Position numbers and translations under genes: made by a program
Origin: Pseudomonadota bacterium
GTDB taxonomy: Bacteria > Pseudomonadota > Gammaproteobacteria > Burkholderiales > Burkholderiaceae_D
Length of the DNA stretch: 33,338 bases
Direction of reading: 5' to 3'
Assembly: GCA_021821365.1 (NCBI GenBank)
Contig: JAKACN010000023.1
Coordinates: 1 to 33,338, forward strand
The notes under the pieces: generated by a model
Database searches by the model: none
Seen by the model: only the letters and a program-made list of their open reading frames with translations
What the model was told of the DNA's origin: nothing
Part shown: positions 2,603-32,099 of the stretch, piece after piece
How positions within the stretch are numbered: the first letter of the stretch is position 1
Layout of the letters: each line of letters begins with the position of its first letter

Positions 2603-2612
2603 GATGTGCTCC

Positions 2613-7222: not shown

Positions 7223-7292
7223 CGACATTAGAGTAATAATGTCATAATAAAAGGTTTAAAAGTTGGAAATTAATAGTATTACGCAGTAATAT
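7223..7292 (+). promoter_or_regulatory. Promoter region of the kfrA-like gene with two perfect inverted repeats
   Basis: Two dyads are seen: GACATTA (7224-7230), 6-base spacer, TAATGTC (7237-7243); and TATTAC (7277-7282), GCA, GTAATA (7286-7291). Both overlap possible promoters: TCGACA (7223-7228), 17 bases, TAATAA; and TTGGAA (7263-7268), 18 bases, TAATAT (7287-7292). KfrA proteins are known to repress their own promoters by binding such dyads, so autoregulation is likely. Which promoter is used is not decidable here. Confidence 0.5.
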
Positions 7293-14787: not shown

Positions 14788-15996
14788 TTAAGGCCGCGTC
14801 ATCCAGTTGATCTTGTGACGCTCCTCCGTTTCACGGTGCCGGGCATCGTCGGAAGAGTGCAGATAGCCGCTGGTGGTGCTGAGCGACTCATGCCCGAGGT
14901 TGTCCCGCACATGGCGCAGGTCGACATCGCTGTTCGCCATGTGCGACCCGGCCGTATGCCGCAGCCAATGCGCCGACGCGGCTTCGACGCGAGCGGCAAG
15001 GGGTTCGAGCTCCGCGCCGCGCGTCCGCAGGCGAGCAGCCGTGCCCTGGAACACCTGCTTCACAACCGCATGCACGGCGCCCCGCGTCATCTGGCGCCGC
15101 TGTGTCCCGACCGGGAGCAGCAGGGGGACATCTTCGGTATGAGTGGGGAAGGGCGGAAGTCCTTTTTCACGCCGATAGCGGGCCAGCTCGACCATCAACT
15201 CGTTGGTGGCCGGGATGAGGCGCGTCTTGTCGCCCTTGCCCGTTATTTCCAGCCACCAGCGCTCCTGGCCGTCTTTATCTCGCCGGCAGAAGAATCCGCC
15301 CATCGTGTTCCCGACGACTTCGGAAATCCGCAGCCCGCAGAGGTAGAGCAGGGAAAACAGCCAGCGCATCCGCAGGTAGTGCTCACGCTCGCGGCCCGTT
15401 TCCCTGGGCATGACATCGATCGTCAGCTTGACTTCGTTCCACAGGTCTTCCTCAAGGTAGCGCGTGATGCGCGGCATGGTTTTCCGTGCCCGCTGACGGG
15501 ATAGCGAAAGGGGATTTCCCGCCAGATAGCCGGCGTTCACGAGCCACGAGAACAGGGTGTTGAGGATGATGAATGCCTGCCGCTGGCTTGACGCGGAAAG
15601 CGGGCCGGCGAAAGGGCGCCATTCCGGATGGGCGCGCCCGAACTTGCGTCCGTCGCGCATCACCCAGCGCGCCGCGGGCTGCGGGTCGGCAAGGAAATGC
15701 CGGTACGCGAGCAGGTCTTCGTGCGTCAGGGAGGAAAACGGCTTCTGCAGTTGCACTGTCGACCACAGCAGGAGCCGCTCGGCTTCCTTGCGATAGTTGT
15801 CGAACGTTGTCTTGGTATCGACGAACCGCGCCAGCCAGGCCTTGATCGCATCGATGTCATTCGTGGCGGCAATCTGGGGACGGTTTCCGGTCGCGCGGTT
15901 CGTCCCGTTCCGACCGTCGAAATCCGGCGAGATGGCGAGGGTTTCGATGGGTGCCAGGGAGTTGGCTAGAGAGGAATGGCTGGCGTCGGTGGACAT
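14788..15996 (-). CDS. Tyrosine recombinase / phage-type integrase
   Basis: 402 residues. The N-terminal SAM-like core-binding domain covers about 45-160 (IKAWLARFVDTKTTFDNYRKEAERLL...). The catalytic domain has the expected residues: Arg223 in LCGLRISEV, Lys254 in TGKGDKTR, His343-x-x-Arg346 in HWLRHTAGSH, His369 in LGHES and the nucleophile Tyr378 in TSGYLH. All are present, so the enzyme should be active. The C-terminus follows the XerD-like stand-alone integrase pattern. No excisionase, att duplication or other phage gene is seen close by. A strong promoter lies upstream at 16032-16059. It may be a relic or driver of a small island with the Fic gene. Confidence 0.92.
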   Translation of the reverse strand: MSTDASHSSLANSLAPIETLAISPDFDGRNGTNRATGNRPQIAATNDIDAIKAWLARFVDTKTTFDNYRKEAERLLLWSTVQLQKPFSSLTHEDLLAYRHFLADPQPAARWVMRDGRKFGRAHPEWRPFAGPLSASSQRQAFIILNTLFSWLVNAGYLAGNPLSLSRQRARKTMPRITRYLEEDLWNEVKLTIDVMPRETGREREHYLRMRWLFSLLYLCGLRISEVVGNTMGGFFCRRDKDGQERWWLEITGKGDKTRLIPATNELMVELARYRREKGLPPFPTHTEDVPLLLPVGTQRRQMTRGAVHAVVKQVFQGTAARLRTRGAELEPLAARVEAASAHWLRHTAGSHMANSDVDLRHVRDNLGHESLSTTSGYLHSSDDARHRETEERHKINWMTRP

Positions 15997-16031
15997 GCGG
16001 ATGGCGGCGGCGATGCGGGAACTGGTTTGAC

Positions 16032-16059
16032 ATTATAGGTGCGGTGCGCTGTCTCTCAA
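16032..16059 (-). promoter_or_regulatory. Sigma-70 promoter of the integrase gene
   Basis: On the minus strand: TTGAGA (16059-16054), 16-base spacer, TATAAT (16037-16032), five and six matches to consensus. Transcription would start near 16025, about 30 bases before the ATG. One of the best sigma-70 matches noticed in the window. Confidence 0.65.
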
Positions 16060-16084
16060 GCCAGGCCGATGCCGAAATATGCCA

Positions 16085-17209
16085 CTACGCGGGCAAATCA
16101 TCCAGTTCATAGCTGGTGCTGCGCCCGCCCGCGCCCGATTTACGCAGCACGCCGCGCGCCAGCAGATCGTTGATGTCGCGCAGCGCCGTGTCGGGCGAAC
16201 ACCTGGCGATGGCCGCCCACTTGCTGGTGGTGAGCTTGCCTTCGAAGCCATCGAGCAGCCGGTTGAGCAACTTTACCTGTCGCTCGTTCAGCGGCATCGT
16301 CGCCCAGCGCTGCCAGAAGCGCGCCTTGGACAGCACGGCGTCGAGCGTGAGCTGCGCCTGGTCCACGGCACGATGCAGGGCATCGAGGAACCAGGCCAGC
16401 CAGGCGGTAACATCGAGCGTCCCCTTCTGCGTCCGCTCCAGGATGTCGTAGTAGGCTTTCCGCTCCCGCTGGATCTGCGCCGACAGGCTGTAGAAGCGCT
16501 GCGGGCTGCCATCCGCCCGCGCCAGCAGCAAGTCGCCGATGGCGCGGGCAATGCGGCCGTTGCCGTCGTCGAACGGGTGCAAGGTGACAAACCACAAGTG
16601 GCCGAGGCCGGCCTTGATCAGCGGCGGCTCCTTCGTTGCGCCATTCACCCAGTCGAAAAATCGACGGGTTTCGGCCGCCAGGCGATCGGCGGGCGGTGCC
16701 TCGAAATGCACGCGCTGCCGTCCGATCGGGCCGGACACGACCTGCATCGGGCCGCCGGCGTCGTCGCGCCAGCCTCCGATCCGGATTTTGGACAGCCCGG
16801 AATAGCCGGTGGGAAACAAGGCGGCATGCCAGCCGAACAGACGCTCCGGCGATAGCGGCGCACGGCAGTTGTCGGTGGCATCGAGCACCATGTCGACCAC
16901 GCCTTCGACATGACGGTCCACCGGCGCCAGCGCGCCGATGTCGACGCCCAGCCGGCGGGCGATGGACGACCGTACCGAGTCGACGTTGAGCCGTTCGCCT
17001 TCGATCTCGCTGGTCTTGACGACGTCCTCGGTCAGCGCGGCCAGGCTCGCCTGACCGCGCAGCGCCATGCCGACGTCGGCCAACCGGCCGAGCAGGAGCC
17101 CCTGCGCCCGGCTGACCTCGGCCATGGGGCCGGCCACTGCCGTCAGGTCGTAGCGCCAGTTTGGCCAGTCGCCGGCCTGCCAGATATACTTGTAATCACC
17201 GCTTTTCAT
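16085..17209 (-). CDS. Fic-domain protein with N-terminal inhibitory helix and C-terminal winged helix
   Basis: 374 residues. Fic AMP-transferases add AMP (or related groups) to protein hydroxyls. The catalytic motif HPFDDGNGRIAR begins at His211 and matches HPFx(D/E)GNGRxxR. The class II inhibitory motif (S/T)xxxE(G/N) is present as TSEIEG, residues 66-71, with Glu70 expected to block ATP binding. A DUF4172-like N-terminal domain precedes it. Residues about 315-370 (LNERQVKLLNRLL..., SPDTALRDINDLLARGVLRKSGAGGRSTSYEL) form a winged helix. The whole is the long, self-inhibited Fic type. It stands alone, antiparallel to nothing, and appears to be transcribed without a leader. The target is unknown. 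Confidence 0.93.
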   Translation of the reverse strand: MKSGDYKYIWQAGDWPNWRYDLTAVAGPMAEVSRAQGLLLGRLADVGMALRGQASLAALTEDVVKTSEIEGERLNVDSVRSSIARRLGVDIGALAPVDRHVEGVVDMVLDATDNCRAPLSPERLFGWHAALFPTGYSGLSKIRIGGWRDDAGGPMQVVSGPIGRQRVHFEAPPADRLAAETRRFFDWVNGATKEPPLIKAGLGHLWFVTLHPFDDGNGRIARAIGDLLLARADGSPQRFYSLSAQIQRERKAYYDILERTQKGTLDVTAWLAWFLDALHRAVDQAQLTLDAVLSKARFWQRWATMPLNERQVKLLNRLLDGFEGKLTTSKWAAIARCSPDTALRDINDLLARGVLRKSGAGGRSTSYELDDLPA

Positions 17210-17301: not shown

Positions 17302-17538
17302 TTATCGCCCGTCGAGCCATTGCTCGATCTTTTCCCGGCTGGGTATGCCGCCGGCGTGCACCACCTTGCCGTCGATGACGACGCCGGGCGTCGACATCAC
17401 GCCGTAGCCCATGATGTCCTTGATGTCCTCCACTTTGCTCAAGGTGATCGGGGTGCCTTTGGCTTGGGCGACCTGCTCGATCAGCGAAATGGTATTCCGG
17501 CAATTGGCGCAGCCAGTGCCGAGGACTTTGATTTCCAT
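17302..17538 (-). CDS. Small thioredoxin-fold protein (TM0996/MTH895 type)
   Basis: 78 residues with an N-terminal CxxC active site (MEIKVLGTGCANCRNTISLI, Cys10 and Cys13) and the cis-Pro loop VMSTPGVVIDGKVVHAGGIPS. This minimal redox fold is often encoded with arsenic-resistance permeases, where it may reduce or transfer oxidised arsenic species or thiols. The start is set by AAAGGAG 5 to 6 bases upstream. It is the last gene of the arsenic cluster, separated from the DUF2892 gene by 192 bp. Confidence 0.9.
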   Translation of the reverse strand: MEIKVLGTGCANCRNTISLIEQVAQAKGTPITLSKVEDIKDIMGYGVMSTPGVVIDGKVVHAGGIPSREKIEQWLDGR

Positions 17539-18000: not shown

Positions 18001-19038
18001 TCACAAGACCGCATTGAATACATAGCCGACGATGAGTATCCCCGTCGCGACGACGCCGGCGAACGTTGCGATCAGGCGTACTTTCAGTACCTTGCGCAGG
18101 ATGATCATCTCCGGGAGCGACAGCGCGATCACACTCATCATGAAGGCCAGCACGGTGCCTAAGGCCGCGCCCTTGGCCAGCAGCGCCTGCACGATCGGAA
18201 TCACGCCCGCCGCGTTGGTATACATCGGCACGCCGATGAGCACGGCCAGCGGCACCGACCACCAGGCGTTCTTGCCCATGATGGACGCCATGAAATCCTC
18301 CGGCACATATCCGTGGATCAGGGCGCCCAGCGCAATCCCGCCCAGGATGTACGGCCAGACCTTGCCCACGATCCCGCGCACTGAAGCAAGGCCCGCGTCG
18401 ATGCGGTCGGCCAGCGTCATGCCGGTGTCTTCAAAGCGCGCAGCGGCTTTCGGCATGTCGCGCACCCAGTCCTCCAGGTGCTTTTCCATCTTCAGGCGGC
18501 CGATGACCCAGCCCGCGACGATTGCAATCAGCAAGCCCAGCCCCAGGTAGAGCATCGCGATTTTCCAGCCGAACATGCCGAACAGGAGCGTCAGCGCGAC
18601 TTCATTGACCATCGGCGCCGAAATCAGGAAGGAAAACGTGACGCCCAGCGGTATGCCGGCCTGCACGAAGCCGATGAACAGCGGCACCGCCGAGCACGAA
18701 CAGAACGGGGTGACGATGCCGAGCGACGCCGCCATGACATTGGCGACGCCTTCGGCGCGGCCGGCCAGCAAGGCGCGGGTACGTTCCGCCGTGAAATAGC
18801 TGTTGATCATGCCCATCACGAACACCACGCCGGTCAGCAGCAACAGGACCTTGGGTGCGTCGTAAAAGAAGAATTGCAGCGCGCCGCCGAGATGGCTGTC
18901 GCGCGCCACCGGCAACAGGGCGACCAATGCTTCCGAGGCCGGCGTGAGCAGCTGGTACAGGGCAATCCACACCAGCAAAGCGGCAACGAGGAACGCACGC
19001 GGCGTCGTACGAAGCCGGGCTATGGACCGTGCCATCAT
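18001..19038 (-). CDS. ArsP/YraQ-type permease
   Basis: 345 residues, an integral inner-membrane protein with about eight to ten hydrophobic segments. The ArsP_1 family signature TPFCSCSAVPLFIGFVQAGIP (read in pieces) is present, with the Cys pair of organoarsenical permeases. SFLISAPMVNEVAL and the second-half repeat GVPMYTNAAGVIPIVQALLAKG, also typical, follow. A cytoplasmic loop lies in the middle (RLKMEKHLEDWVRDMPKA). The start at 19038 follows GGAGA by 7 bases. In the ars context, export of methylated or organic trivalent arsenic is plausible; other members move unknown solutes, so the substrate is inferred. Confidence 0.9.
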   Translation of the reverse strand: MMARSIARLRTTPRAFLVAALLVWIALYQLLTPASEALVALLPVARDSHLGGALQFFFYDAPKVLLLLTGVVFVMGMINSYFTAERTRALLAGRAEGVANVMAASLGIVTPFCSCSAVPLFIGFVQAGIPLGVTFSFLISAPMVNEVALTLLFGMFGWKIAMLYLGLGLLIAIVAGWVIGRLKMEKHLEDWVRDMPKAAARFEDTGMTLADRIDAGLASVRGIVGKVWPYILGGIALGALIHGYVPEDFMASIMGKNAWWSVPLAVLIGVPMYTNAAGVIPIVQALLAKGAALGTVLAFMMSVIALSLPEMIILRKVLKVRLIATFAGVVATGILIVGYVFNAVL

Positions 19039-19201
19039 GTCGGATTCTCCAGGTTGTTGATGTTTTGAAAACCCGTGCGTGCGGCGGAGCAATCAGGATT
19101 TTCTCGTTCAATCTGAAGACGAATGAGCCGGCAAAAGGATGCAAACAAGGCGGAAGCGCCGGACGATCACGGGCGTCCCGGCAGGGCAGTCCGGTCGGAT
19201 T

Positions 19202-19765
19202 TCAGGTGCGCGTCCGCGACGTATGGCAGCACACCGAGCCGGTCTCGTCGAATCTGACCTGGCAGTTCCGAATCAGCCATTCGCGCATACGCTGCCGCGC
19301 GCGCAGCAGGCGAGATTTGGTCGCCGGCAGGCTCAGCCCGTGCGCATCGGCGTACGCCTGCTGTTTCACTCCCTCGATATCGCACCGGCGGAGGATGTCG
19401 CTGTCTTCCACGGATAGTGCCGCAAGGACGCGCGGCAGGCATTCCGCGAGTGCATCCACGGGAGCGAGGTTGGACTCTTCCTGAATCAGGTCGTCAGGCA
19501 GCGGTACGGTGGGTTTGGACAGCCGCGTGCTGTCGATCAGCGCATTGCGCGCCACCTGGAACAGCCAGGCGCGCGGGTTCTCCAGGCTGCAGAAGTTTTT
19601 GCCCTGGGCCATCGCTTTCAGAAAGACGTCCTGCACCAGGTCGTCGGCCAGATGCGCGTCCTGCAGATGGTGCGCCAGGTAACGGCGCAGCTCGACCTCG
19701 TGCTGCTCCCACGCGTTGAGCACGCACGCGAAATTGCGGAATTGCGCAACCGGAGAGTCAGTCAT
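19202..19765 (-). CDS. ECF sigma factor, SigZ-like
   Basis: 187 residues. Region 2 is seen in EVELRRYLAHHLQDAHLADDLVQDVFLKAM and FCSLENPRAWLFQVARNALIDSTR. Region 4 is VEDSDILRRCDIEGVKQQAYADAHGLSLPATKSRLLRARQRMREWL. The C-terminal tail has Cys residues (NCQVRFDETGSVCCHTSRT), as in SigZ-type factors, which could sense a metal or thiol oxidation. No anti-sigma gene is adjacent. It lies between acr3 (24 bp) and the permease gene in one ars operon. Its promoter target is not visible; self-control of the permease genes is a possibility. Confidence 0.88.
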   Translation of the reverse strand: MTDSPVAQFRNFACVLNAWEQHEVELRRYLAHHLQDAHLADDLVQDVFLKAMAQGKNFCSLENPRAWLFQVARNALIDSTRLSKPTVPLPDDLIQEESNLAPVDALAECLPRVLAALSVEDSDILRRCDIEGVKQQAYADAHGLSLPATKSRLLRARQRMREWLIRNCQVRFDETGSVCCHTSRTRT

Positions 19766-19789: not shown

Positions 19790-20866
19790 TCAAGCCCGTG
19801 AACCTGCTTCGTACCAGGATTGCGTGGCGTTGACCACGCGAACGACCAGCAGCATCACCGGCACTTCGATCAGCACGCCCACCACGGTGGCCAGTGCGGC
19901 GCCCGACTCGAAACCGAACAGGCTGATGGCTGCGGCCACCGCGAGTTCGAAGAAGTTCGATGCGCCGATCAGCGCGGATGGGCAGGCCACCGCGTGCTTT
20001 TCGCCCAGCTTGCGATTGAGCCAGTACGCGAGCGCCGAGTTGAAAAACACCTGGATCAGGATCGGCACCGCCAGCAGCGCGATCACCAGCGGCTGCCTGA
20101 TGATGGCATCGCCCTGGAACGCGAACAGCAGCACCAGCGTCAGCAGGAGCGCGCCGATCGACCAGGGTTGTATCTTCGCCATGGCGGCATCGAATGCGGC
20201 CTGGCCCCGGGCCAGCAGCATGCGGCGCAGCGCCTGCGCGATCAGGACCGGGATCACGATATAGAGAATGACCGAGGTGATCAGGGTATCCCACGGCACG
20301 GTGATGCTCGATACACCCAGCAACAGGCCGACCACCGGCGCAAACGCGAACACCATGATCAGGTCATTGAGCGCCACTTGCGACAAGGTGAAATACGGGT
20401 CGCCGTCGGTCAGGCGGCTCCATACGAACACCATCGCGGTGCAGGGCGCGGCGGCCAGCAGGATCAGGCCGGCGATGTAGCTGTCGATCTGGGCCGCGGG
20501 GAGCAGCGGCGCGAACAGGTGGCGAACGAAGATCCAGCCGAGCAATGCCATTGAAAACGGCTTGACCAGCCAGTTGACGAACAGGGTCACGCCGATCCCT
20601 TTCACATGGGCGCGCACCTGGTGCAAGGCGCCGAAGTCGATCTTCAGCAGCATCGGAATGATCATCACCCAGATCAGCAGGCCGACCGGCAGGTTGACCC
20701 TGGCGATTTCCATGGCACCGATCGCCTTGAACAGCGAGGGCAGTCCTTGACCCAGGACGATTCCCACCACGATGCAGGCCGCGACCCAGGCGGTCAGATA
20801 GCGTTCAAAAAATCCGAGCGGCGCGCCGGCGGCGCGTTTCCCGGTCACTTCACATTGGATGGTCAT
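19790..20866 (-). CDS. acr3: Arsenite efflux transporter of the ACR3 family
   Basis: 358-residue inner-membrane arsenite (and possibly antimonite) carrier with ten hydrophobic segments. Family marks: LTAWVAACIVVGIVLGQ at the N-terminus, NLPVGLLIWVMIIPMLLKIDF, NWLVKPFSMALLGW, LLAAAPCTAMVFVWS with the essential Cys in segment 4, GDPYFTLSQVALNDLIMVFAFAP, and SALIGASNFFELAVAAAISLFG (AxNxFExAIA type). Often named arsB although unrelated to the E. coli ArsB. It follows arsC by 57 bp and works downstream of it, exporting the As(III) that ArsC makes. Confidence 0.96.
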   Translation of the reverse strand: MTIQCEVTGKRAAGAPLGFFERYLTAWVAACIVVGIVLGQGLPSLFKAIGAMEIARVNLPVGLLIWVMIIPMLLKIDFGALHQVRAHVKGIGVTLFVNWLVKPFSMALLGWIFVRHLFAPLLPAAQIDSYIAGLILLAAAPCTAMVFVWSRLTDGDPYFTLSQVALNDLIMVFAFAPVVGLLLGVSSITVPWDTLITSVILYIVIPVLIAQALRRMLLARGQAAFDAAMAKIQPWSIGALLLTLVLLFAFQGDAIIRQPLVIALLAVPILIQVFFNSALAYWLNRKLGEKHAVACPSALIGASNFFELAVAAAISLFGFESGAALATVVGVLIEVPVMLLVVRVVNATQSWYEAGSRA

Positions 20867-20923: not shown

Positions 20924-21400
20924 TCAGGCGAGGTGGCCGATCTTGTCGAGTTCGGCTTTTAGCGCGGCCTTGTCGTGCTTGAGCGTTTCCAGCGGCAAGG
21001 CGAGAAAGGCCTCGATGCGCTTGCGCAGGATGCGGTACGCGGTCATGAACGCGGCATCGATTTCTTCGTCGGTACCGGTGGCATGGGCGGGATCTTCGAC
21101 GCCCCAGTGCGTGCGCATCACGGGACCCAGATAGGCCGGACAGGCTTCGCCGGCGGCGCTGGCGCACACCGTAATGACGATATCCGGCGTCGCGGGCAAG
21201 TTGTCCCAGGACTTGCTGTAATAGCCCTCGGTCGACATGCCCTCGCGGTCCAGCAACGCCAGCGAACGCGGATGCACTTGTCCGGTGGGTTTGCTGCCGG
21301 CGCTCATGGCATGCCAGCCATCCGGCGCCAGGTGATTGAAGGTTGCTTCTCCGAGGATGGAGCGGCAGGAGTTGCCGGTGCAGAGAAAGAGGACATTCAT
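20924..21400 (-). CDS. arsC: Arsenate reductase ArsC (LMW-phosphatase fold, thioredoxin-coupled type)
   Basis: 158 residues. Cytoplasmic enzyme reducing As(V) to As(III). The P-loop CTGNSCRS (Cys7 to Arg13, CX5R) opens the protein, and the shuttle Cys79 and Cys87 are in VITVCASAAGEACP. The catalytic Asp is in GVEDPAHATG. The C-terminal helix is longer than in the Staphylococcus enzyme. Because the small thioredoxin-fold gene is in the same cluster, a dedicated electron donor is conceivable. The start at 21398-21400 has no strong ribosome site. It follows arsR by 64 bp. Confidence 0.95.
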   Translation of the reverse strand: MNVLFLCTGNSCRSILGEATFNHLAPDGWHAMSAGSKPTGQVHPRSLALLDREGMSTEGYYSKSWDNLPATPDIVITVCASAAGEACPAYLGPVMRTHWGVEDPAHATGTDEEIDAAFMTAYRILRKRIEAFLALPLETLKHDKAALKAELDKIGHLA

Positions 21401-21464: not shown

Positions 21465-21806
21465 TCACGGCGCGGCGTCCGCGGTCGTGCAGTCGGTCTT
21501 GCAGACAGCCAGGCAGGGATTGCCGCCGCAGCAGTTATCCGTCAGGAAACTCATGAGAGCATTCATCGTCTCGAAATTCGCCGCGTAGATGACGAAACGA
21601 CCTTCCTGTTTCGGCACGACCAGGCCGGCATGGGTCAATTCCTTCAAATGAAATGACAGCGATGACGGCGGAATCCCGAGGCTTTCCCCGATCTTGCTCG
21701 CCGCCATGCCTGCCGGCCCGGTTTGCACGAGCAAGCGGAAAACCGCAAGCCGGGAATCCTGCGCGAGTGCCGCCAGCGCGGAAATGGCGTCCTTGGTCAT
21801 CATCAT
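21465..21806 (-). CDS. arsR: ArsR-family arsenic-responsive repressor
   Basis: 113 residues. Winged-helix dimeric repressor: ALAQDSRLAVFRLLVQTGPAGMAA, SLGIPPSSLSFHLKELTHAGLV (recognition helix) and EGRFVIYAANFETMNALM (wing). It lacks the ELCVCDL As(III) site of the E. coli type. Instead Cys92, Cys93, Cys98, Cys102 and Cys106 lie at the C-terminus (NCCGGNPCLAVCKTDC), like the Acidithiobacillus-type ArsR where C-terminal cysteines bind As(III). Three Met codons in a row (21806, 21803, 21800) leave the exact start open. First gene of the ars operon and divergent from the molybdoenzyme operon. Confidence 0.94.
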   Translation of the reverse strand: MMMTKDAISALAALAQDSRLAVFRLLVQTGPAGMAASKIGESLGIPPSSLSFHLKELTHAGLVVPKQEGRFVIYAANFETMNALMSFLTDNCCGGNPCLAVCKTDCTTADAAP

Positions 21807-21842
21807 CGTCAGGGTGGATCAAATCCGTTAAAAATTCAATGC

Positions 21843-21858
21843 TTCCATAATAATGGAA
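21843..21858. promoter_or_regulatory. Likely ArsR operator
   Basis: TTCCAT (21843-21848), AATA, ATGGAA (21853-21858), 37 bp upstream of arsR. On the minus strand TATTAT inside it matches a -10 box in five of six positions, so binding would block the arsR promoter. ArsR operators are typically AT-rich dyads of this sort. Confidence 0.55.
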
Positions 21859-21935
21859 ATGTGAGAATGTTGCACCTCCGACTGCATTTTACCGATTGAC
21901 ATGGGTCACAGTTTCTTCGTCGGGTTGTTGTTGTC

Positions 21936-21947
21936 TGGTAATTACCA
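21936..21947. promoter_or_regulatory. Perfect 12-bp palindrome upstream of the molybdoenzyme operon
   Basis: TGGTAATTACCA, 71 bp before the ATG at 22019. Different in sequence from the putative ArsR site, so it may bind another regulator. I see no convincing sigma-70 boxes placed around it. Confidence 0.4.
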
Positions 21948-22018
21948 TGTTAGCGTCATGGTCAATATCGCCTGCGTGCAACAGGCAAATTCCATTCTCA
22001 AACGAAGAGGATCAGGCC

Positions 22019-24622
22019 ATGGAACTGAGTCGCAGAAAGTTCATGCAAGGTGTGGGGGCGTTGGGCGGGGCGGCGGCTGCGTCGGCATTCAGCTTTCCCG
22101 CTATCGCCGCCGCGGCGAAAGACGCGAAGAAGAGCAATGGCGCCGCGAGCGCCATCGAGGTGCGCAAGGTCAAGTCCGGCTGCGCGATCTGCCCGAATTT
22201 TTGCGGCATCGAGGCGACCGTCGTCAACGGCATCATCCGCACCATCTACCCCGATACGGCGCGCGCCGAGTTCTACAACCACGGCATCTGCCCGAAGGGC
22301 GCCTCGGGCATGTTCAATACCTACGATCCGTACCGCCTGAAAAAGCCGCTGCGCCGGACCAATCCGAAGAAGGGGCCGGGCGAAGATCCGCGCTGGGTCG
22401 AAATCAGCTGGGATGAAGCATTCAACACGATCGCCGAACGGCTCAGGAAGCTGCGCGCGGAAGACCCGCGCAAGCTGATCTGGCAGCATGGCCAAGGCAA
22501 GTACCTGATCCAGGAACAGTATTGCCAGGCATGGACCAAGGCGTTCGGCACGCCGAACATGGTGCATCGGACCACCGCCTGCGAAGCGGCGCGGCACGTC
22601 GCGGACGAATTGACCTGGGCCGGCGGCGGCATCCTGCCGGACCTCAAGTACTCCAAGCTCCTGCTCAACTTCGGCGCGAACTACTACGAGGGCGAGCAAG
22701 CCTCGCGCTGGCTGGACTGGCAGACCATGCAAAGCATTGACAACAACGGGCTCAAGACCATCGTTGTCGAGCCGCGGCTGTCGGGCGTGGCGGGCAAGGC
22801 GAACGAGTGGGTGCCGGTGCGCCCCGGCAAGGACGTGGTGATGATTCTCGCCATGGCGAAGGTGATGATCGACGCCGGCACCATCGACGAGCCTTTCCTG
22901 GTCGACTTCACGAATGCGCCGCAACTGGTCGATGCGTCAGGCGCCATCCTTAAGGACAAGGACGGCAAGACGCCCCTGGTGTGGGACATCGTATCGGGCA
23001 GCGCCAAACCTTACGCGCAGGGCGTCAAGCCGGCACTGAAGGGCAGCTATACCATCGACGGCAAGCCGTACCGCACCGCGTTCCAGGTGCTGGCGGACAG
23101 CATCGCCGATATCACGCCGGAATACGCACAGGAAGTGGCGGACGTGCCTGCTGCGACCATTACGCGCCTTGCGCAGACCTTCGCGAAGGAAGCGCGCATC
23201 GGCGAAACCATCGTGATCGACGGGCAGACGCTGCGCTACCGGCCAGCCGTGCTGTATTCCTTCCGCGGCCTCGCGGCCAAGGAGCACGGCGTGCAGGGCT
23301 GGCGCACCGGCCTGATCCTGAACATGCTGGTCGGGAACATCGACGCCGTCGGCGGACTGATGCTCGGCGGCGCCTACGGACGTCCGCAGTACTTCGATGT
23401 CAGCAAGTGCGAGTACCCGCCCAGCCGCGCCGACCTCGCGCAAAGCGTGTTCTTCCCGTATTCCAACCACCACATCGCGCAGACGCCGAACCTCGTGGTG
23501 CAGGACCCGAAGGCCTACGGACTGCCGTACCAGCCGGAGATGCAGATCTTCTACGGCACCAACCGGCCGGTGTCGATCCCGAATTCCTGGCAGCAGTTCG
23601 CGGGCCTGGCGAAGACCTATAACGTCGTGATCGACATCGTGATGAGCGAGAGCGCGTGGTACGCCGATATCGTGTTGCCGGACAAGACCTACCTCGAGTC
23701 CTGGCATTTCGCGCCGACGCGCGGTACCACCGACACCGGCCATATCGCGATCCGCCAGCCGATGGCGAATCCGTACAACCTCGAGCACGATGCCTTCAGC
23801 ATCATGTGGGAACTCAGCAAGCGGGTCGGCTTCCGCGACCAGTACGCGACGGAATGCAACAAGTCCTGGGGCCTCAAGGAAGTGACCTTCAAGCCGGGCC
23901 GCGATTACACCACCCGCGAGGGTGTGGAAATCCTCTGGGGTGACAAGGCGAAGAAGGATTTTTCGGTGGCCATCGAACAGGGCTTCGTCGGCAGCCGGAA
24001 AAGCGTGAAGAGCAAGTATCTGTCCGGCGCCGAGGACAAGTTCAAGGGTCCGGGCAAGGCCAAGATGAAGTTCTACGCGGACCAGCTGATCGACACGTAT
24101 TACAAGGCCGAAGGCATCGTCAAGAAGAACAACCTTGCATCGTTCGACCTGGCGAAACTGCGGATTGCCTATGCGCCCTTGCCGACCAGGGAGCATGCCT
24201 TCCCGACGCCGCATCGAGAAGCGAAGGACTATCCGTTCTACGTGATCACGCACAAGCGCATGTACCGCAACCAGTCCGGCAACACCGTCAACAACGCGAT
24301 CCTGAACCAGGCCATCGGCGGGGATGCCGCGACCAACTTCGTCCAGCTCAACGCCGCGACGGCCGGCACGCTCGGCATCAAGAGCGGCGACGCGGTGACG
24401 ATCGAAACGCGCGTCGGCAAGATCAAGGGCACCGCGCAGGTTATTCAAGGCATCCGTCCCGATACCATCGCCGTGTCCTACCACTATGGCCAATGGAGTC
24501 CCGGCTACGCGCCCGACGCGCATCACGGCACGGCGATCAATCAGGTGCTGGAACACCATCCCGACCTGATCTCCGGGCACAACTCGTTCAACGATACCAA
24601 GTGCAAGCTCTACAAGGCATAA
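22019..24622 (+). CDS. Tat-exported molybdopterin oxidoreductase, catalytic subunit (Arr/Arx/Psr/Ttr-like)
   Basis: 867 residues. A twin-arginine signal (MELSRRKFMQGVGALGG) sends the folded enzyme to the periplasm. A [4Fe-4S] site follows: Cys55, Cys58, Cys62 (CAICPNFC) and Cys91 (GICPKG), with Lys93 bridging to the cofactor. Cys188 in HRTTACEAARHV is the likely molybdenum ligand. The guanine-dinucleotide domain has NFGANYYEGEQ and VVEPRLSG, and the C-terminal domain NAATAGTLGIKSGDAVTIETRVGKIKG. NPKKGPGEDPRWVEISWDEAF is typical of the arsenate/polysulfide/tetrathionate reductase branch. AGAGGA 7 bases upstream sets the start. Its position divergent from arsR suggests arsenate reduction or arsenite oxidation; thiosulfate, polysulfide, tetrathionate or selenate are alternatives I cannot exclude. 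Confidence 0.88.
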   Translation: MELSRRKFMQGVGALGGAAAASAFSFPAIAAAAKDAKKSNGAASAIEVRKVKSGCAICPNFCGIEATVVNGIIRTIYPDTARAEFYNHGICPKGASGMFNTYDPYRLKKPLRRTNPKKGPGEDPRWVEISWDEAFNTIAERLRKLRAEDPRKLIWQHGQGKYLIQEQYCQAWTKAFGTPNMVHRTTACEAARHVADELTWAGGGILPDLKYSKLLLNFGANYYEGEQASRWLDWQTMQSIDNNGLKTIVVEPRLSGVAGKANEWVPVRPGKDVVMILAMAKVMIDAGTIDEPFLVDFTNAPQLVDASGAILKDKDGKTPLVWDIVSGSAKPYAQGVKPALKGSYTIDGKPYRTAFQVLADSIADITPEYAQEVADVPAATITRLAQTFAKEARIGETIVIDGQTLRYRPAVLYSFRGLAAKEHGVQGWRTGLILNMLVGNIDAVGGLMLGGAYGRPQYFDVSKCEYPPSRADLAQSVFFPYSNHHIAQTPNLVVQDPKAYGLPYQPEMQIFYGTNRPVSIPNSWQQFAGLAKTYNVVIDIVMSESAWYADIVLPDKTYLESWHFAPTRGTTDTGHIAIRQPMANPYNLEHDAFSIMWELSKRVGFRDQYATECNKSWGLKEVTFKPGRDYTTREGVEILWGDKAKKDFSVAIEQGFVGSRKSVKSKYLSGAEDKFKGPGKAKMKFYADQLIDTYYKAEGIVKKNNLASFDLAKLRIAYAPLPTREHAFPTPHREAKDYPFYVITHKRMYRNQSGNTVNNAILNQAIGGDAATNFVQLNAATAGTLGIKSGDAVTIETRVGKIKGTAQVIQGIRPDTIAVSYHYGQWSPGYAPDAHHGTAINQVLEHHPDLISGHNSFNDTKCKLYKA

Positions 24623-24633
24623 GGGAGAAGAAA

Positions 24634-25326
24634 ATGGCCAAGTACGTTCGCGTGATCGATACCAGGAAGTGCATGGGCTGCCGCTCCTGCGTGGCAGCCT
24701 GCGCGGTGGAGAATCACTTCACTCCCGGCGCCCCGTGGAGCGCCATGATGGAATACGAGGTCGGCACCTATCCCCAGGTGAAGAAGATCTATACCCCGAT
24801 GGGCTGCATGCACTGCGAGCATCCCGCCTGCAAGGCGGCCTGCGACTATATCGGCAGGAAGGCGATCAGCAAGAACGCGTTCGGCGCGGTGATCATCGAC
24901 TACGACAAGTGCAACGGATGCGGCTATTGCGCCTCCGTTTGCCCCTATGGCGTACCGCAAGTCAACAAGTCGCTGCAACCTCTACGCCCCGGCAAGGGGC
25001 CGATCGGGTCCGAAGCCCTGCCCGCCGATGCGCGCCACCCGACGCATCGCAAGAAAGCCAATACCGCCGAAAAATGCACCCTCTGCAGCCACAAGCTGGA
25101 AAAGGCCGTTGCCGACGGCAAGGCCGATCGCATCGGCAAGGACCAGGAATACACGCCGACCTGCGACCTGGTCTGCCCGGTGCAGGCACGCGTGTTCGGC
25201 GACATCGAGGACCCGAACAGCGAAGTGTCCAAACGCATCAAGGACGGCAACGCGGTGCAATTGAAGAAGCAGTTCAATACCGGGCCGCAGGTGTACTACA
25301 TTCTCGAAGAAGGGGCATCGTCATGA
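24634..25326 (+). CDS. Four-cluster ferredoxin subunit of the molybdoenzyme (ArrB/PsrB/NrfC-like)
   Basis: 230 residues, electron-transfer subunit with sixteen cluster cysteines expected. Seen: RKCMGCRSCVAACAVEN (Cys13, 16, 19, 23), MGCMHCEHPACKAACDY, DKCNGCGYCASVCPYGVP, and the split site CTLCSHKL ... PTCDLVCPVQAR. It has no signal of its own, so it should be exported with the Tat-borne large subunit, as in this family. AAGGGAG before ATG 24634 gives a good ribosome site, 11 bases after the large-subunit stop. Its stop overlaps the next start (ATGA at 25323-25326), implying translational coupling to the cytochrome gene. Confidence 0.93.
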   Translation: MAKYVRVIDTRKCMGCRSCVAACAVENHFTPGAPWSAMMEYEVGTYPQVKKIYTPMGCMHCEHPACKAACDYIGRKAISKNAFGAVIIDYDKCNGCGYCASVCPYGVPQVNKSLQPLRPGKGPIGSEALPADARHPTHRKKANTAEKCTLCSHKLEKAVADGKADRIGKDQEYTPTCDLVCPVQARVFGDIEDPNSEVSKRIKDGNAVQLKKQFNTGPQVYYILEEGASS

Positions 25327-25616
25327 AATCCTTGATCCTGGGCGTCCTGACCTGTGCGGCCGCGCTCGTGATGCTCGATGCATCGGCAGCCAGGTATTCG
25401 ATGGCCGAGAAAGGTTCCTTCCACAAGGTCCACGCGAAGAAGGCCAAGACCGATTGCGAGGATTGCCACAGCAAGGACCCGATTGCCGACGATGTTCTGC
25501 TGGTGAGCCGCAACAGGCCGCTCGCCAAAGGCTCGCCGGGTTTCGTCGATCCCAAGGAGTGCTACGAATGCCATCGGCAGAAGAGCAACCGGCTACCGGT
25601 CTATGCACCGCACTGA
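25323..25616 (+). CDS. Periplasmic diheme c-type cytochrome
   Basis: 97 residues. A Sec signal (MKSLILGVLTCAAALVMLDASA) precedes a small domain with two CxxCH haem sites, CEDCH and CYECH, and other His residues (FHKVHAKK) that could give bis-His ligation. The ORF overlaps the ferredoxin gene by 4 bases. It would pass electrons between the periplasmic oxidoreductase and the respiratory chain. It takes the place that an NrfD-type quinol-binding membrane subunit has in Psr, Ttr and Arx operons, and no such gene exists here. Its origin resembles the short multihaem/NapB-like group, but I cannot name a family. Confidence 0.88.
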   Translation: MKSLILGVLTCAAALVMLDASAARYSMAEKGSFHKVHAKKAKTDCEDCHSKDPIADDVLLVSRNRPLAKGSPGFVDPKECYECHRQKSNRLPVYAPH

Positions 25617-25617
25617 C

Positions 25618-26280
25618 ATGAATGCCCATGTCGAGTGCTGCGCGTTTGCGCGGGAACGCAGCCAGGCCTACTGGCTGCTGTCGCGATTGTTCCTGCAGGT
25701 GCCGGACCTGCCATGTCTGCGCGAACTGCAAACGCTCCTTGCATCGGCCGATGGGCAGGGGCCGCTTGGCGAGCTGAAACGCGAAGTCAGTGCGGCGATG
25801 GAGACACCTGATGAGGCAGCGGTAGAGTTCACACGTCGCCTGGTTGTCGTCAGCAAGGACAGCGGCGAGAGCCTGCCCTTCGAATCGTTCGTGCGCGAAG
25901 GCATGCTTCCCGGCACAGCGACGGCCGAGGTGGCCGCGTGCATGGCGGATGCTGGCTTGCCCGATGCCGCGCCGGATGCCGCGACGCCCGACCATATCGG
26001 CGCCGAGTTCGGATTCATGGCACTGCTTTGCCATGAAGAGTGCCGGGCATGGGCAGAGAACCGGCAGGAAGAAGCGCTGCGCCTGGCCGGGAAACAATGG
26101 CATTTCCTGAACCGGCATCTTGCCGCATGGATCCCCGATTACTGCGATGCGCTTGAAGCCCGCGCTGCGCACGGATACATGAAGGCAGTGGCGCGTCTCG
26201 CGCGTCAGTGCGTGCTGGCCGATGTGGACGGTTACGAAGGCGTTCCCGACGTTTCGGAACAATGCGCAGAGATGCGGTGA
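25618..26280 (+). CDS. TorD-like molybdoenzyme maturation chaperone
   Basis: 220 residues, all-helical TorD/DmsD type. N-terminal RERSQAYWLLSRLFLQVPD matches the family start, and the later LPFESFVREGMLPG and HIGAEFGFMALLCHEE (the EPxDHxxxEL-like zone) and FLNRHLAAWIPDYCDAL are the conserved segments. It binds the Tat signal of the large subunit and holds it until the molybdenum cofactor is loaded. Start ATG 25618 is 1 base after the cytochrome stop; an ATG at 25603 would overlap the cytochrome gene. Last gene of the operon; a hairpin lies at 26360-26377 before hipB. Confidence 0.88.
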   Translation: MNAHVECCAFARERSQAYWLLSRLFLQVPDLPCLRELQTLLASADGQGPLGELKREVSAAMETPDEAAVEFTRRLVVVSKDSGESLPFESFVREGMLPGTATAEVAACMADAGLPDAAPDAATPDHIGAEFGFMALLCHEECRAWAENRQEEALRLAGKQWHFLNRHLAAWIPDYCDALEARAAHGYMKAVARLARQCVLADVDGYEGVPDVSEQCAEMR

Positions 26281-26436: not shown

Positions 26437-26745
26437 TCAGAGGGACGGGGTGCGGAGATCGCTCCCCGCCGCGCGCACCACGCCCAGCTTAAGCCCCACC
26501 ACACCCAGGATCCGGTTCAGGGTCTGCACCGTGCCTTCGCTTCGCTCGCCTTCAATATCCTGTAACGTGCGGAATCCCAACCCGGAAAGCTTGGCCAGTT
26601 CCGCGGTCGTGAGGCGCATGGTCGTTTTCAGGTGTCGTACGGACTGTGCCAGGCTCCATTCCGGGTGCGCCAGCACGTCTTCGACGGCTTTCCTGCGCAA
26701 AGCCAGCTGTTCGTTCGGCGGCAGGGTGTTGTAACGTTTATCCAT
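26437..26745 (-). CDS. HipB-like antitoxin, XRE-type HTH
   Basis: 102 residues from ATG 26743-26745; the frame is open to 26922 but overlaps hipA and reads as Arg-rich nonsense. The HTH is MRLTTAELAKLSGLGFRTLQDIEGERSEGTVQTLNRILGVVGLKL (in segments), the family of HipB/XRE repressors. Its start is 10 bp after the stop of the hipA-like gene, so the pair is one operon in toxin-first order, opposite to the E. coli hipBA arrangement. It should neutralise the kinase and repress the operon. Confidence 0.85.
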   Translation of the reverse strand: MDKRYNTLPPNEQLALRRKAVEDVLAHPEWSLAQSVRHLKTTMRLTTAELAKLSGLGFRTLQDIEGERSEGTVQTLNRILGVVGLKLGVVRAAGSDLRTPSL

Positions 26746-26755
26746 GGTGACGGTG

Positions 26756-28102
26756 TCAGGCAAGCGCCTCGAGTTGTAGCGCCTGATTCTCGATCCCTTG
26801 CAGGAGATAGGCATGTACGTCCGCGTCCAGGCCAAGTGCCGGGCCTTCCGCAGCGATGCGGCGCAGCGCCGGCGCCATGCTCTTGAGCCCCTGCACCAAT
26901 GCTTCGCGCCGTATGCCGGCAATGCGTTCTCGTCCTCGACGTTTCCTGTCTTCCTGCCGGGCTATGCGTTGTTCGGAGAGCTGGCAAACCCGGTCGACGA
27001 CCCGCTGCCAATTGGGCTCTCCGTTATCGTTGTCCTGCCACCGGATGCGGCGTGCGATGCCATCCGGGTGCAGATACATCGGAACAAAGTCATACAGCGG
27101 CGTCAGCGCAATGTTTCCCTGAAAATCGCGCTGCAGGGCGGTGTTGCGCGCGTGATTGTCCTTGTTGCCCAGCGCGAGGTTGGCGATGTCCCGCTTGATG
27201 TACTCGAGCACCTCTGCTTCAGGATGCGTGCAGCGGGTCAGCAGTTGAAGACATACTTCGTCGTGGCTGGGCACGGCGCCGAAGCCTGGCATGTCCGTGA
27301 GCGTGGCGATGCTTTCCTGTGCAAGACGGATGACGCGATTTTCCGCCAGGACCCGGTCGAAACGCGGAATGAAGAGTGCGCGCTCGCGCAAATGCAGTGG
27401 TCCGTGAACACGCAGGCCGAGCAGCTTTGCCAGCGCCATGTAGGGAGCCTCATGCCGAAGAATGGTGGCGAGCTGGACGTCGGGGCCGCGTCCGAACTTC
27501 ACGATGTAGTGCTGGCGCGCGCGCGCATCCGGCAAGGTATGGTCGAGGTAAAGCAAACCATCGTCGGCGCGTGTCATCAGAATCTTGGGCCACTCGCCTT
27601 GCACGCCCGACGATCCCGCCACAAAAAGGCCATGCTGAGCGAGGTACTCGGCGAATCGTTCGCCGCGCATGGCAACTTCCTCGTCCGTAAAGCCACGCGT
27701 CGGACCGGCATTATTGGCCAACCATTGTGCCGCTTCCTTGACGCGCAGATTGCCGATCGGATTGCCGGCACCGGTGAGCAAGAGTTGCCAGTCGGCCTCA
27801 ATACCGGCGGCAGGCCTCATGCCGAGGCGTTGCAGCAGCTCTTCACGGCCGAAGCCCTGAGGCAGCATATCGATCAGGAACACCGGCCAGTGTGGTTGCT
27901 CAAACGGCTCCAGCCCCACCGGGAAGCGACAGGCGAAGGCATGCGCATCGCGCGCCCCGGTGTGAGAGACGGCCCAATCCACGGCATAGCCGGCGTAGGT
28001 ATGGGCTCTCCATCCGTCGCTTGCAGCGCCGAACAGGCTCACGCTGCCCATGTCATGCCAGGCATCGTCGGAAAATAGTTGGAGGGTGCATTCGGTATTC
28101 AT
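26756..28102 (-). CDS. HipA-like serine/threonine kinase toxin
   Basis: 448 residues. Family HipA toxins phosphorylate aminoacyl-tRNA synthetases such as GltX, stopping growth. Visible elements: the G-loop-like GSSGVQGEWPKILM (163-176) with candidate autophosphorylation serines, the Lys202 region HYIVKFGRG, the catalytic LGNKDNHARN (Asp315, Asn320) and the metal-binding LTPLYDF (Asp338). The N-terminal HipA_N subdomain is present (LFGAASDGWRAHTYAG...WPVFLIDMLPQGFGREELL). Full length, no break. Start ATG 28102 or GTG 28108; neither has a ribosome site, which, with a possible TAATAT box just upstream, leaves a near-leaderless start possible. Confidence 0.9.
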   Translation of the reverse strand: MNTECTLQLFSDDAWHDMGSVSLFGAASDGWRAHTYAGYAVDWAVSHTGARDAHAFACRFPVGLEPFEQPHWPVFLIDMLPQGFGREELLQRLGMRPAAGIEADWQLLLTGAGNPIGNLRVKEAAQWLANNAGPTRGFTDEEVAMRGERFAEYLAQHGLFVAGSSGVQGEWPKILMTRADDGLLYLDHTLPDARARQHYIVKFGRGPDVQLATILRHEAPYMALAKLLGLRVHGPLHLRERALFIPRFDRVLAENRVIRLAQESIATLTDMPGFGAVPSHDEVCLQLLTRCTHPEAEVLEYIKRDIANLALGNKDNHARNTALQRDFQGNIALTPLYDFVPMYLHPDGIARRIRWQDNDNGEPNWQRVVDRVCQLSEQRIARQEDRKRRGRERIAGIRREALVQGLKSMAPALRRIAAEGPALGLDADVHAYLLQGIENQALQLEALA

Positions 28103-28287
28103 TTGCACGAAATATTAGCATAACTATGACCTGATTTCCTTTTAATATTGATAGATTTTCGTGTAATTGAAATTGCTTTTGGCATGCATGGCGAGATCGA
28201 CCGGATGCTTTCGATACCGGACAGGGGCTGTCCGACATGCAGCAGTGTCATTTCTCACCGCTCCTCAATGAGCAAAGCAGCCACAAT

Positions 28288-30218: not shown

Positions 30219-31001
30219 ATGAACAATTTGCCCACGGTCAGAGCAGGCGACTGGCTCAACAAAGTCCCTGAAGTCACGCTGTCGTTCTGGATTATCAAGA
30301 TCATGTCCACGACGGTGGGCGAGACCGGGGCCGACTTCCTGGCGGTCAACGCGGGCTTTGGCCAAGGCTTGACGCGCACTGTCATGGGTGCGTTGTTGGC
30401 AGTCGCCCTGTTCACGCAACTGCGTACCCGTCGCTACACCCCTTGGATTTACTGGCTAACGGTCGTGTTGGTCAGCGTGGTCGGTACCCAGATCACCGAC
30501 CTGTTGACCGACGGCCTGGGCGTCAGCCTCTACGTCAGTACCTCGGCGTTCGCCGTGGCGCTCGCGGCGATCTTCTTTGTCTGGTATCCGGTTGAACGTA
30601 CCTTGTCTATCCACGACATCGTGACGCGCAGCCGGGAACTGTTCTATTGGTCCGCCATCCTCTGCACGTTTGCGCTGGGCACCGCTGCCGGCGATCTGGC
30701 GACCGAGGCGCTGGGCTTGGGCTTTACCTGGGGCGCAGTCGCCTTCGGCGCGCTGATCGGCATTACCTATGCCGCCTGGCGTATGGGTGGCAACGCCGTG
30801 CTGACCTTCTGGATCGGCTACATCCTGACCCGTCCCTTCGGCGCTGCGCTCGGCGACCTGCTGACGCAAGCCAAGACTTACGGTGGCCTCGGAATGGGGG
30901 CCATGTGGACCAGCGCCCTGTTCCTCTCAGTCATCGTCATGCTGGTGGCCGTTGCGCAGATCGGCATGAACGCAGGCCGCTCCGCCCAAGCCGCCGAGTA
31001 A
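30219..31001 (+). CDS. DUF347 four-repeat membrane protein (COG4705), first copy
   Basis: 260 residues, about eight membrane segments. Four internal repeats share an aromatic FW or YW, then G-x-x-x-x-D-L: [19 protein letters not shown] (23-41), [19 protein letters not shown] (78-96), [19 protein letters not shown] (143-161) and [19 protein letters not shown] (197-215). This is the DUF347 pattern, whose function is unknown; the repeat may mean a transporter or channel with pseudo-symmetry. AGGAGA lies 5 bases from the ATG. A paralogue is encoded downstream at 32096. Confidence 0.88.
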
Positions 31002-31484: not shown

Positions 31485-32099
31485 ATGGACATTGCCAGCT
31501 GGGGCCTGCCTGCCGTGGGCGTCGGCAGCTTTCTCGAAGGCGAGTCCGTACTGCTGATCGCTGGCGCCGCCGCCGCGCGCGGCCATCTTTCGATCCAGGC
31601 GGTGATGGCCGTGGCGGCCGTGGCCAGTTTCATCGGGGACCAGTTGTTCTTTCTGATCGGTCGGCGCTACGGCACCGCCCTGCTGATGCGCTTTCCTGCG
31701 TTGCAGCCACGCGCCCAGCGAGTAACCGTGTTGCTAGAGCGTCATCACCTGCCGCTGATTCTGTCGATTCGCTTCCTCTACGGCCTGCGCGTCGCCGGGC
31801 CGATCGCGATCGGCATGAGCCGCGTGCCCTGGCCACGCTTTCTGGCGCTCAACTTCGTTGGCGCCGTATGCTGGGCCGTGCTGATTGGCGGTCTCGGCTA
31901 CGGCACGGGGCATGCACTGGCGTACGCACTGCAAAGCGTCGATGCCGATGAGCTCTGGGGGCTGGCGTTGCTGGCCGTGGCGATTTGCATCACCTGGCTG
32001 ATTGCGCGACACAGCCCACGAGGGCCATCGGGTGGAGAAGGTGCCCATACCGATCTGACACACGCCTCAGCAAAACACCATATTTGGAGCAAAAAATGA
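31485..32099 (+). CDS. DedA-family membrane protein
   Basis: 204 residues. DedA proteins are flippase-like and help recycle undecaprenyl phosphate and other lipids; they affect polymyxin resistance. Seen are FLEGESVLLIAGAAAARGHL (the membrane-embedded acidic Glu), FIGDQLFFLIGRRYG (FxGDxxxYxxGRxxG), FLYGLRVAGPIAIGMSRVPWPRF (RFxPxxR-like, basic residues) and FVGAVCWAVLIGGLGYGTG. Complete and conserved, though the N-terminus is somewhat short. The TGA stop overlaps the next ATG (32096-32099). The gene pair with the PAP2 phosphatase suggests action on the same lipid carrier. Confidence 0.9.
   Translation: MDIASWGLPAVGVGSFLEGESVLLIAGAAAARGHLSIQAVMAVAAVASFIGDQLFFLIGRRYGTALLMRFPALQPRAQRVTVLLERHHLPLILSIRFLYGLRVAGPIAIGMSRVPWPRFLALNFVGAVCWAVLIGGLGYGTGHALAYALQSVDADELWGLALLAVAICITWLIARHSPRGPSGGEGAHTDLTHASAKHHIWSKK

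Follow-up and report, generated by a model that had tools for sequence, protein, structure and literature searches.

The window analysed here is the whole stretch of 33,338 nucleotides of contig JAKACN010000023.1 (positions 1-33,338), from a Pseudomonadota bacterium. Its plus strand carries a tight run of four genes, called here A, B, C and D (22019-26280), divergent from the arsenic genes arsR, arsC and ACR3. A (22019-24622) encodes a catalytic molybdopterin subunit of 867 residues, with a twin-arginine (Tat) signal and the N-terminal [4Fe-4S], molybdopterin and dinucleotide-binding domains recognised by Pfam and NCBIfam. After a gap of 11 bases comes B (24634-25326, 230 residues), an electron-transfer subunit whose 16 cysteines make up four [4Fe-4S] cluster motifs. 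C (25323-25616, 97 residues) overlaps B and encodes a diheme c-type cytochrome with the motifs CEDCH and CYECH, a His-x-x-His ahead of the first CxxCH and, by eye, a signal-like N-terminus; its best Pfam match, Cytochrome_C7, was slightly below cut-off (22.8 versus 24.8 bits). D, a chaperone of the TorD/NarJ family (PF02613), ends at 26280 and starts at 25603 or 25618, so that it overlaps C or lies 1 base away from it. Among the compared loci, the nearest relatives of B outside the family were ArxB (37-39%) and next ArrB (36%).

Compared stretches are labelled L for loci and G for genomes. A scan of genome contigs with short exact peptides, which detects close kin only, recovered 23 loci with relatives 49-94% identical to A (L011-L033). 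Together with the window and a locus from one more genome (L130) they form a set of 25 distinct loci; L129, which by its genes comes from the same genome as L026, was not counted. In a class-wide search of 369 genomes, family members scoring above 1400 bits came from three (the window genome, that of L026 and G632), the next score being 387 bits and the remainder at most 287. The next best match to A in the window genome reached 59 bits, all 17 candidates being scored, and the ArrA model matched only A there, with 2 of 14 candidates scored and AioA not searched. Plasmids yielded no close relative, all matches being below 60% and the best among the matches listed about 30%. Family hosts range from Betaproteobacteria to Scalindua, Nitrospirae and Archaeoglobaceae.

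A, B, the two-heme C and TorD were kept in all 25 loci, A being truncated by the contig end in L032 and an octaheme gene standing between the cytochrome and TorD in L016 and L017. All 25 C cytochromes have two CxxCH and, by eye, a His-x-x-His ahead of the first heme motif, which suggests bis-His hemes. No NrfD gene was found in any of the 25 loci, whose lengths differ (shortest 5.5 kb), using a profile and single queries that did find one in the reference loci L133, L134, L135, L138 and L139. The window genome encodes three NrfD proteins, on contigs C111, C169 and C19, none of them on the window contig, and the C111 gene directly precedes a TtrA-like gene. The preliminary description of the window, made from its letters, had announced a complete four-gene operon divergent from arsR and devoid of NrfD, and had proposed a genome-neighbourhood search for the same genes: all four reading frames lie where it had placed them, with their domains confirmed, and the set recurs at every locus examined. 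Judged by title, start of abstract or passages, none of the open-licence papers listed describes this four-gene set; passages of PMC10100899 mention branches of the superfamily that are without assignment, and the A clade may or may not be one of these. Two loci showed peculiarities of their own. The first cysteine of the N-terminal cluster motif is replaced by D, the remainder being kept, in the Nitrospirae locus L031 (4192-6744), and a second molybdoenzyme gene with neighbours resembling an iron-sulfur subunit and a chaperone lies upstream of the family operon in L015 (1994-4846).

The position of A among molybdoenzymes was examined with a tree of 48 rows, 19 from the family and 29 references (ArxA, ArrA, PhsA, PsrA-like, TtrA, SoeA, DmsA, two long single rows and two outgroups). 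A first tree had 55 rows, seven of which were removed: L066 and L079 (mis-picked SoeA), L015b, L007, L049 and the family rows L018 and L021. The reference rows received their labels from NCBIfam scores, motifs and operons, the names SoeA, PsrA-like and DmsA being given by likeness and L133-L135 being called ArxA from GRGWG and their NrfD gene. The ArrA of L137 (1742 bits, cut-off 1600) and the PhsA of L138 pass their own cut-offs; the TtrA rows scored 718-1497 bits, under the cut-off of 1750. The family formed one clade (100/100) and ArxA with ArrA another, AnrA, SbrA, SrrA and SrdA not being among the references. It leaned toward TtrA and SoeA (93/93) and was joined at 96/93 by two long rows, Natronorubrum L059 and L131 of G510, both on long branches. 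Constrained-topology tests on 32 rows, including 7 family members, rejected a group of the family with ArxA alone (p=3e-5). They did not reject the family with ArxA and ArrA as one clade (p=0.327), a grouping absent from the best tree, nor a clade of the family with TtrA alone (p=0.153). Thus the clade itself is solid, and its deeper position is not settled by the tree tests. The preliminary description had named placement inside a characterised clade as a reason to abandon its proposal; A was found outside the ArxA, ArrA, PhsA, PsrA-like, TtrA, SoeA and DmsA reference groups.

Motifs and family models agree with this separation. According to passages of PMC6549141, ArxA carries the motif XGRGWG and ArrA the motif (R/K)GRY. 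At this place the A protein of the window has HGQGKY (signature WQHGQGKY), GRGWG being seen in L133, L134, L135 and L154. In an alignment of 21 of the 25 members, which omits L017, L022, L032 and L130, the regular expression G-x-G-K/Q-Y matched 19 sequences and missed L023 and L031, the latter reading HHAHGKY; variants were QWGQGKY in L021 and TGHGQY in L029. Cys188 of A aligns with the molybdenum-ligand cysteine of ArxA and ArrA and is invariant in 21/21 aligned members, which puts A with the Cys-ligated sulfur/arsenic group of complex iron-sulfur molybdoenzymes (Psr/Phs, Arx/Arr, Ttr), defined by this ligand. With none of the catalytic-subunit models listed in NCBIfam did A reach the curated cut-off. 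Its identification as ArrA was discarded on its score with NF041714 (192.7 bits, cut-off 1600) and the lack of (R/K)GRY; as PhsA or PsrA, on 289 of 694 bits with NF012032 (PhsA), its separation in the tree and the lack of NrfD; and as TtrA by family model, on 59.2 of 1750 bits with NF011567, a cut-off that the TtrA rows used here also miss. Nor does A look like an ArxA: it has no XGRGWG, stands outside the ArxA clade and belongs to a family in which none of the 25 operons includes ArxC/NrfD.

In the relatives, the neighbourhood of the operon links it with arsenic. ACR3 and ArsC were found together in 7 of the 25 loci (the window, L011, L014, L016, L018, L026 and L032). For ACR3 in 6 of the 23 scanned loci, p<=2.2e-7 was obtained on the assumption of 1-3 ACR3 copies per 4.5 Mb, a rough estimate as the loci are not independent. 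A periplasmic arsenite sensor of the AioX family (ArxX-type) is encoded in 8 of the 25 (L015, where it is partly alignable, L016, L017, L020, L021, L025, L033 and L130), and ars genes, the sensor or both in 14. The arsenic link guessed at in the preliminary description is thus supported, and the co-occurrence with ars genes in relatives, whose absence it would have held against itself, is present. The L016 sensor scored 188 bits to the solved AioX versus 134 to ArrX, and it is 60-61% identical to the ArxX adjoining ArxA in L133 and L134; its kinase is 46-48% and its regulator 58% identical to theirs. The binding residues Tyr88, Cys106, Tyr131, Ser161, Ser163, His192 and Asp210 are kept in all eight sensors, with Thr for Ser163 as in the ArxX of L133/L134; L033 and L130 have Val in place of Ala at one of two loop residues. 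The sensors of the family are mixed with those linked to ArxA and ArrA in a quick tree, in which 5 of 12 inner branches are starred. This mixing indicates that the link between sensor and operon probably arose more than once, by repeated recruitment of arsenic sensing. At E 1e-20, 14 of 25 family genomes have an ArxX homologue, and six of these have it solely outside the locus.

The regulator linked to the sensor is a sigma-54 activator, and the sensor gene is directly divergent from A in five loci (L016, L017, L020, L021 and L130). Sites resembling sigma-54 promoters precede A by 68-119 bases in L016, L017, L020 and L021 and match the consensus at 10-11 of 12 bases (0-3 of 200 shuffles as good); L130 has no such site before A (best 6/12). 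Before ArxA, comparable sites were found in L154 (10/12) and L133 (9/12), equalled in 2 and 14 of 200 shuffles. Because 49 sites of at least 10/12 occur in the 480,910 bases scanned (26 loci, L032 left out), single sites carry little weight; four in register do count. A ferredoxin of about 500 residues encoded downstream in the ArxA locus L133, labelled ArxB2-like from its gene place and make-up, has homologues in 14 of the 25 family loci (four 47-49% and ten 31-38% identical). Passages of PMC6549141 place arxB2 downstream of arxABCD in strain M52 and describe it as apparently specific to arx. Counting this gene, an arsenic-type marker is present in 19 of the 25 loci, the others being L023, L027, L028, L029, L030 and L031; the genome of L023 has an ArrA locus with a sensor elsewhere (L155), and the window genome has only a distant B2-like gene, on another contig.

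In the window itself, arsR (21465-21806, minus strand) was recognised by HTH_metalloreg (57.9 bits, cut-off 55). Its product has cysteines at 92/93/98/102/106, a C-terminal pair plus further ones, like the type 2 As(III)-sensing ArsR described in passages of PMC6683785. Next on the minus strand are arsC, of the low-molecular-weight phosphatase kind (20924-21400; TIGR02691 75.7 bits, under the cut-off of 174.3), and the ACR3 arsenite efflux transporter (19790-20866; TIGR00832 399 bits, cut-off 283). The divergent promoter region between arsR and A (21807-22018) contains a perfect palindrome at 21843-21858, TTCCATAATAATGGAA, which may be an ArsR operator; as a conserved operator it was discarded, its exact form being present only in the window's own sequence and absent from the relatives' loci. 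The scan that detected sigma-54-like sites in relatives found none in the window. From this arrangement, ArsR is the likely regulator of the operon in the window.

We tentatively propose that A represents a family of periplasmic arsenic-oxyanion oxidoreductases, wired through c-type cytochromes and oxidising arsenite, a reading to which we give a probability of roughly 0.37. The substrate would be oxidised at the Cys-ligated molybdenum centre of the Tat-exported, periplasmic A, after maturation of A by D before export. Electrons would pass from A through the clusters of B to the diheme cytochrome C, and from there to a soluble cytochrome c or to a separate inner-membrane cytochrome at the quinone pool (octaheme-b561, or NapC in some hosts). 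Such wiring would resemble that of Nap or Aio and would be joined to a catalytic framework of the Arr, Arx and Psr type. The evidence for an arsenic connection is good for the proteobacterial members as a group, and for the deep members no such link is shown. The substrate element is rather probably arsenic or antimony, so that the preliminary description, which held the substrate not to be decidable, was too pessimistic for the element, while it remains right for the direction. If the substrate is arsenic, oxidation is favoured by a modest amount, reduction keeping somewhat less than an even chance.

Several observations weigh against arsenite oxidation. Neither ars genes nor the sensor occur in 11 of the 25 loci, among them both Photobacterium loci, Scalindua and the two deepest branches (Nitrospirae L031, and Archaeoglobaceae L030 with only 5.5 kb), so the ancestral substrate may differ. 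The window genome has no ArxX homologue at E 1e-20. The sensor beside ArrA in L155 carries the same residues as the family sensors, which is why sensor type was rejected as an indicator of direction and leaves it unfixed. The ArxB2-like label is weak, and so is the gene as an arsenic marker: only 1 of 3 ArxA loci carries it (the upstream ferredoxin of L134 is 29% identical and L135 has no match), and a 33% homologue occurs in the AioA/ArrA region L152. A has neither the ArxA nor the ArrA motif. Finally, a second arsenic enzyme would be redundant in hosts that already have ArxA (G747) or ArrA (G632, G753), and the family may do something that the Arx, Aio and Arr enzymes do not. On the other side, the contig of the operon in G632 also carries, within about 30 kb, ArrA and a gene that by eye is AioA-like, which speaks for the arsenic reading. 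In G747 (Herbaspirillum sp. ST 5-3) there is an ArxA operon and, on another contig, a further sensor-linked enzyme. The latter (L153, G747 contig C23, 8634-11330) is PsrA-like (40% to L140), and an ArxX-type sensor system lies upstream of this molybdoenzyme; its sister in L134 (2494-5127) adjoins the ArxA operon. This pair may represent a further enzyme of arsenic or antimony.

A respiratory reductase of arsenate or antimonate, receiving electrons from quinol through octaheme-b561 or NapC to C, B and A, is the first alternative and, though somewhat unlikely, draws on the membrane proteins found with the family. A gene for NapC lies directly upstream of A in L026 and L028, which suggests quinol oxidation, i.e. 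substrate reduction. In Shewanella, ArrAB is fed by CymA. At E 1e-30, NapC was found in 7 of 20 family genomes and some match over cut-off in 12 of the 20, L017, L019 and L021 not being included in this count. As a feeder in the window NapC was discarded, its genome having only a weak match of 26.5 bits. An octaheme protein with a b561-like membrane part is encoded near A with a monoheme cytochrome in L012, L016, L017 and L020, and a homologue cut by the contig end adjoins an ArrAB with the RGRY motif in Sulfuritalea (L155). In the window genome, a copy with 60% identity is encoded on contig C348 (L128). With an E value of 1e-100, octaheme-b561 was detected in 12 of 25 distinct family genomes (26 were searched, G580 and G756 being one genome). 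Of the family genomes, 15 were counted as betaproteobacterial by record title (the window's by kinship); it was present in 11 of these versus 11 of 248 other genomes of the order (Fisher p=1e-10, uncorrected for kinship); the latter count was 13 of 250 before removal of G950, which matches the family genome G754 in place and score, and of the window's own genome G000. Of 21 family genomes tested for both, 14 had NapC (E 1e-30 or better) or octaheme-b561 (1e-100) and 7 had neither at these limits, which counts against a reductase fed in this way. Against it too are the absence of the ArrA motif, the ArxX-like sensors and the oxidative character of the Sox and FccAB neighbours presented below, and MtrB/PioB-type modules also serve oxidation.

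Octaheme-b561 and NapC are likely alternative membrane links of the family to the quinone pool. The preliminary description had pictured a soluble periplasmic complex with a cytochrome exit: the diheme gene in 25/25 loci and NrfD in 0/25 speak for the exit, whereas complete detachment from the membrane does not follow, one of these two proteins likely providing contact with quinone. It had further taken the want of a membrane anchor as setting the operon apart, which fails, as the ArrAB locus L137 is likewise without NrfD and novelty cannot be argued on that ground. From the genes around it, ArrAB may have several membrane links. ArrA-like genes stand near multiheme cytochromes in L136 (2671-5253; nine CxxCH, with a b561-like reading frame seen in L035), where no NrfD match was found, and in L155 (1-5469; the octaheme homologue). 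On contig C348 of the window genome, genes for a DmsE-type decaheme cytochrome, an MtrB/PioB porin, octaheme-b561 and the monoheme cytochrome follow each other in a row (1264-7284), a possible extracellular electron transfer cluster.

Sulfur genes adjoin the operon in a smaller number of loci. In L011 (Herbaspirillum sp. ST 5-3), soxC, Y, Z, A, X and B, all over their cut-offs, stand upstream of the operon with four small reading frames intervening, and ars genes follow directly downstream. Genes resembling fccAB adjoin A in L024, L025, L033 and L130, the flavoprotein being checked by Pfam only in L024. The first three of these loci also have a sigma-54-like site about 3 kb upstream of A, which precedes fccAB and a gene that by eye resembles CRP. 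These neighbours keep a sulfur or thioarsenic substrate in play. A second and less probable alternative is that A acts on sulfur or arsenic-sulfur compounds (thiosulfate, tetrathionate, polysulfide; thioarsenite or thioarsenate) and that ars genes lie beside it because arsenic is released, in keeping with the lean of the tree toward TtrA and SoeA and with the TtrA clade that was not rejected. It is unlikely given that no more than 5 of the 25 loci showed recognisable sox or fcc genes, that A stays far below the PhsA and TtrA cut-offs, and that in passages of PMC5908839 AioX and ArxX bound none of thiosulfate, tetrathionate and sulfate. More specific, and decidedly improbable as an account of the family, would be a periplasmic, cytochrome-wired arsenite/thioarsenite dehydrogenase linking the arsenic and sulfur cycles; in one sub-clade it would be encoded with flavocytochrome c sulfide dehydrogenase under a sigma-54 system that senses arsenite, and a single co-regulated unit would oxidise arsenic-sulfide species. 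As to direction, ArxX-type sensors, Sox and FccAB favour oxidation; NapC points to reduction, as does the module that also occurs at an ArrAB locus, which leaves the balance near even.

That A is an ordinary divergent member of ArrA, ArxA, PhsA/PsrA, TtrA or SoeA, or an antimonate reductase AnrA/SbrA, is very unlikely. A clade with ArxA and ArrA was not rejected, but the family stands apart from 29 reference rows at 100/100, cannot be grouped with ArxA alone, scores below the NCBIfam cut-offs and has different motifs. AnrA and SbrA, which are not among these rows, may still prove identical with it.

One known system that the family resembles is Arx, the anaerobic arsenite oxidase (ArxB2ABCD with ArxXSR). 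Shared with it are a Cys-ligated molybdenum subunit, an ArxB-like B and TorD and, in relatives, the ArxX/S/R homologues, the sigma-54-like site and the B2-like ferredoxin; the family differs by the diheme cytochrome in place of ArxC/NrfD, by the missing GRGWG, by its place outside the ArxA clade and, in the window, by arsR instead of arxXSR. Anchorless ArrAB resembles it as an AB pair without NrfD in the locus (L137) and by the octaheme-b561 module shared with Sulfuritalea; unlike it, the family lacks (R/K)GRY, falls far short of the ArrA model and has its own diheme subunit in the operon. In the periplasmic nitrate reductase Nap, a catalytic subunit and its diheme partner are fed by a membrane cytochrome. 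The family likewise pairs a soluble catalytic subunit with a diheme partner, but the catalytic family is another one, the iron-sulfur subunit B is separate, and the diheme protein is c7-like with no NapB model among its Pfam matches. Operons of the type II perchlorate/chlorate/selenate enzymes encode A, B, a cytochrome and a chaperone, with an Asp ligand to molybdenum. Their four-gene logic is the same, but the ligand is Cys here and A reaches 113 of 985 bits with the type II model. Finally, the antimonite oxidase NaoABC is another lineage-specific molybdoenzyme of the arsenic and antimony cycle; it differs by its Rieske-type NaoC and by NaoA being nearest to NapA, as stated in passages of PMC11521347.

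Further genes surround the arsenic region of the window. Within the ars run lies a gene for a sigma-70-family factor resembling those of extracytoplasmic function (19202-19765, minus strand). An ArsP_1-family permease (18001-19092, minus strand; PF03773, 254 bits) and an adjoining small thioredoxin-like protein (17302-17538, minus strand) are also present in L014 and L015. Reading frames resembling, by eye, an integrase, a Fic protein and HipAB (14788-17209 and 26437-28108) flank the arsenic region, which suggests a genomic island. Minus-strand reading frames at 1-6537 resemble, again by eye, a Flp/Tad pilus assembly cluster. Two related membrane-protein reading frames (30219-31001 and 31985-32869), forming one BLAST cluster, lie close together ahead of a response regulator.

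Electron transfer to or from arsenic outside the cytoplasm is known for only a few enzyme families: Aio, Arx, Arr and an alternative archaeal reductase listed in passages of PMC10100899. If the proposed function is true, surveys based on arxA, arrA and aioA would miss this additional family, with a motif and cytochrome wiring of its own, and the reading of arsenic metagenomes from groundwater and sediments would change. Two named isolates that carry the family, Herbaspirillum sp. ST 5-3 and Photobacterium proteolyticum 13-12, make testing feasible. If some members act on antimony or thioarsenic, the finding would touch processes with few known enzymes. The distribution of the sensors suggests that arsenite-sensing regulators have been reused by several catalytic lineages.

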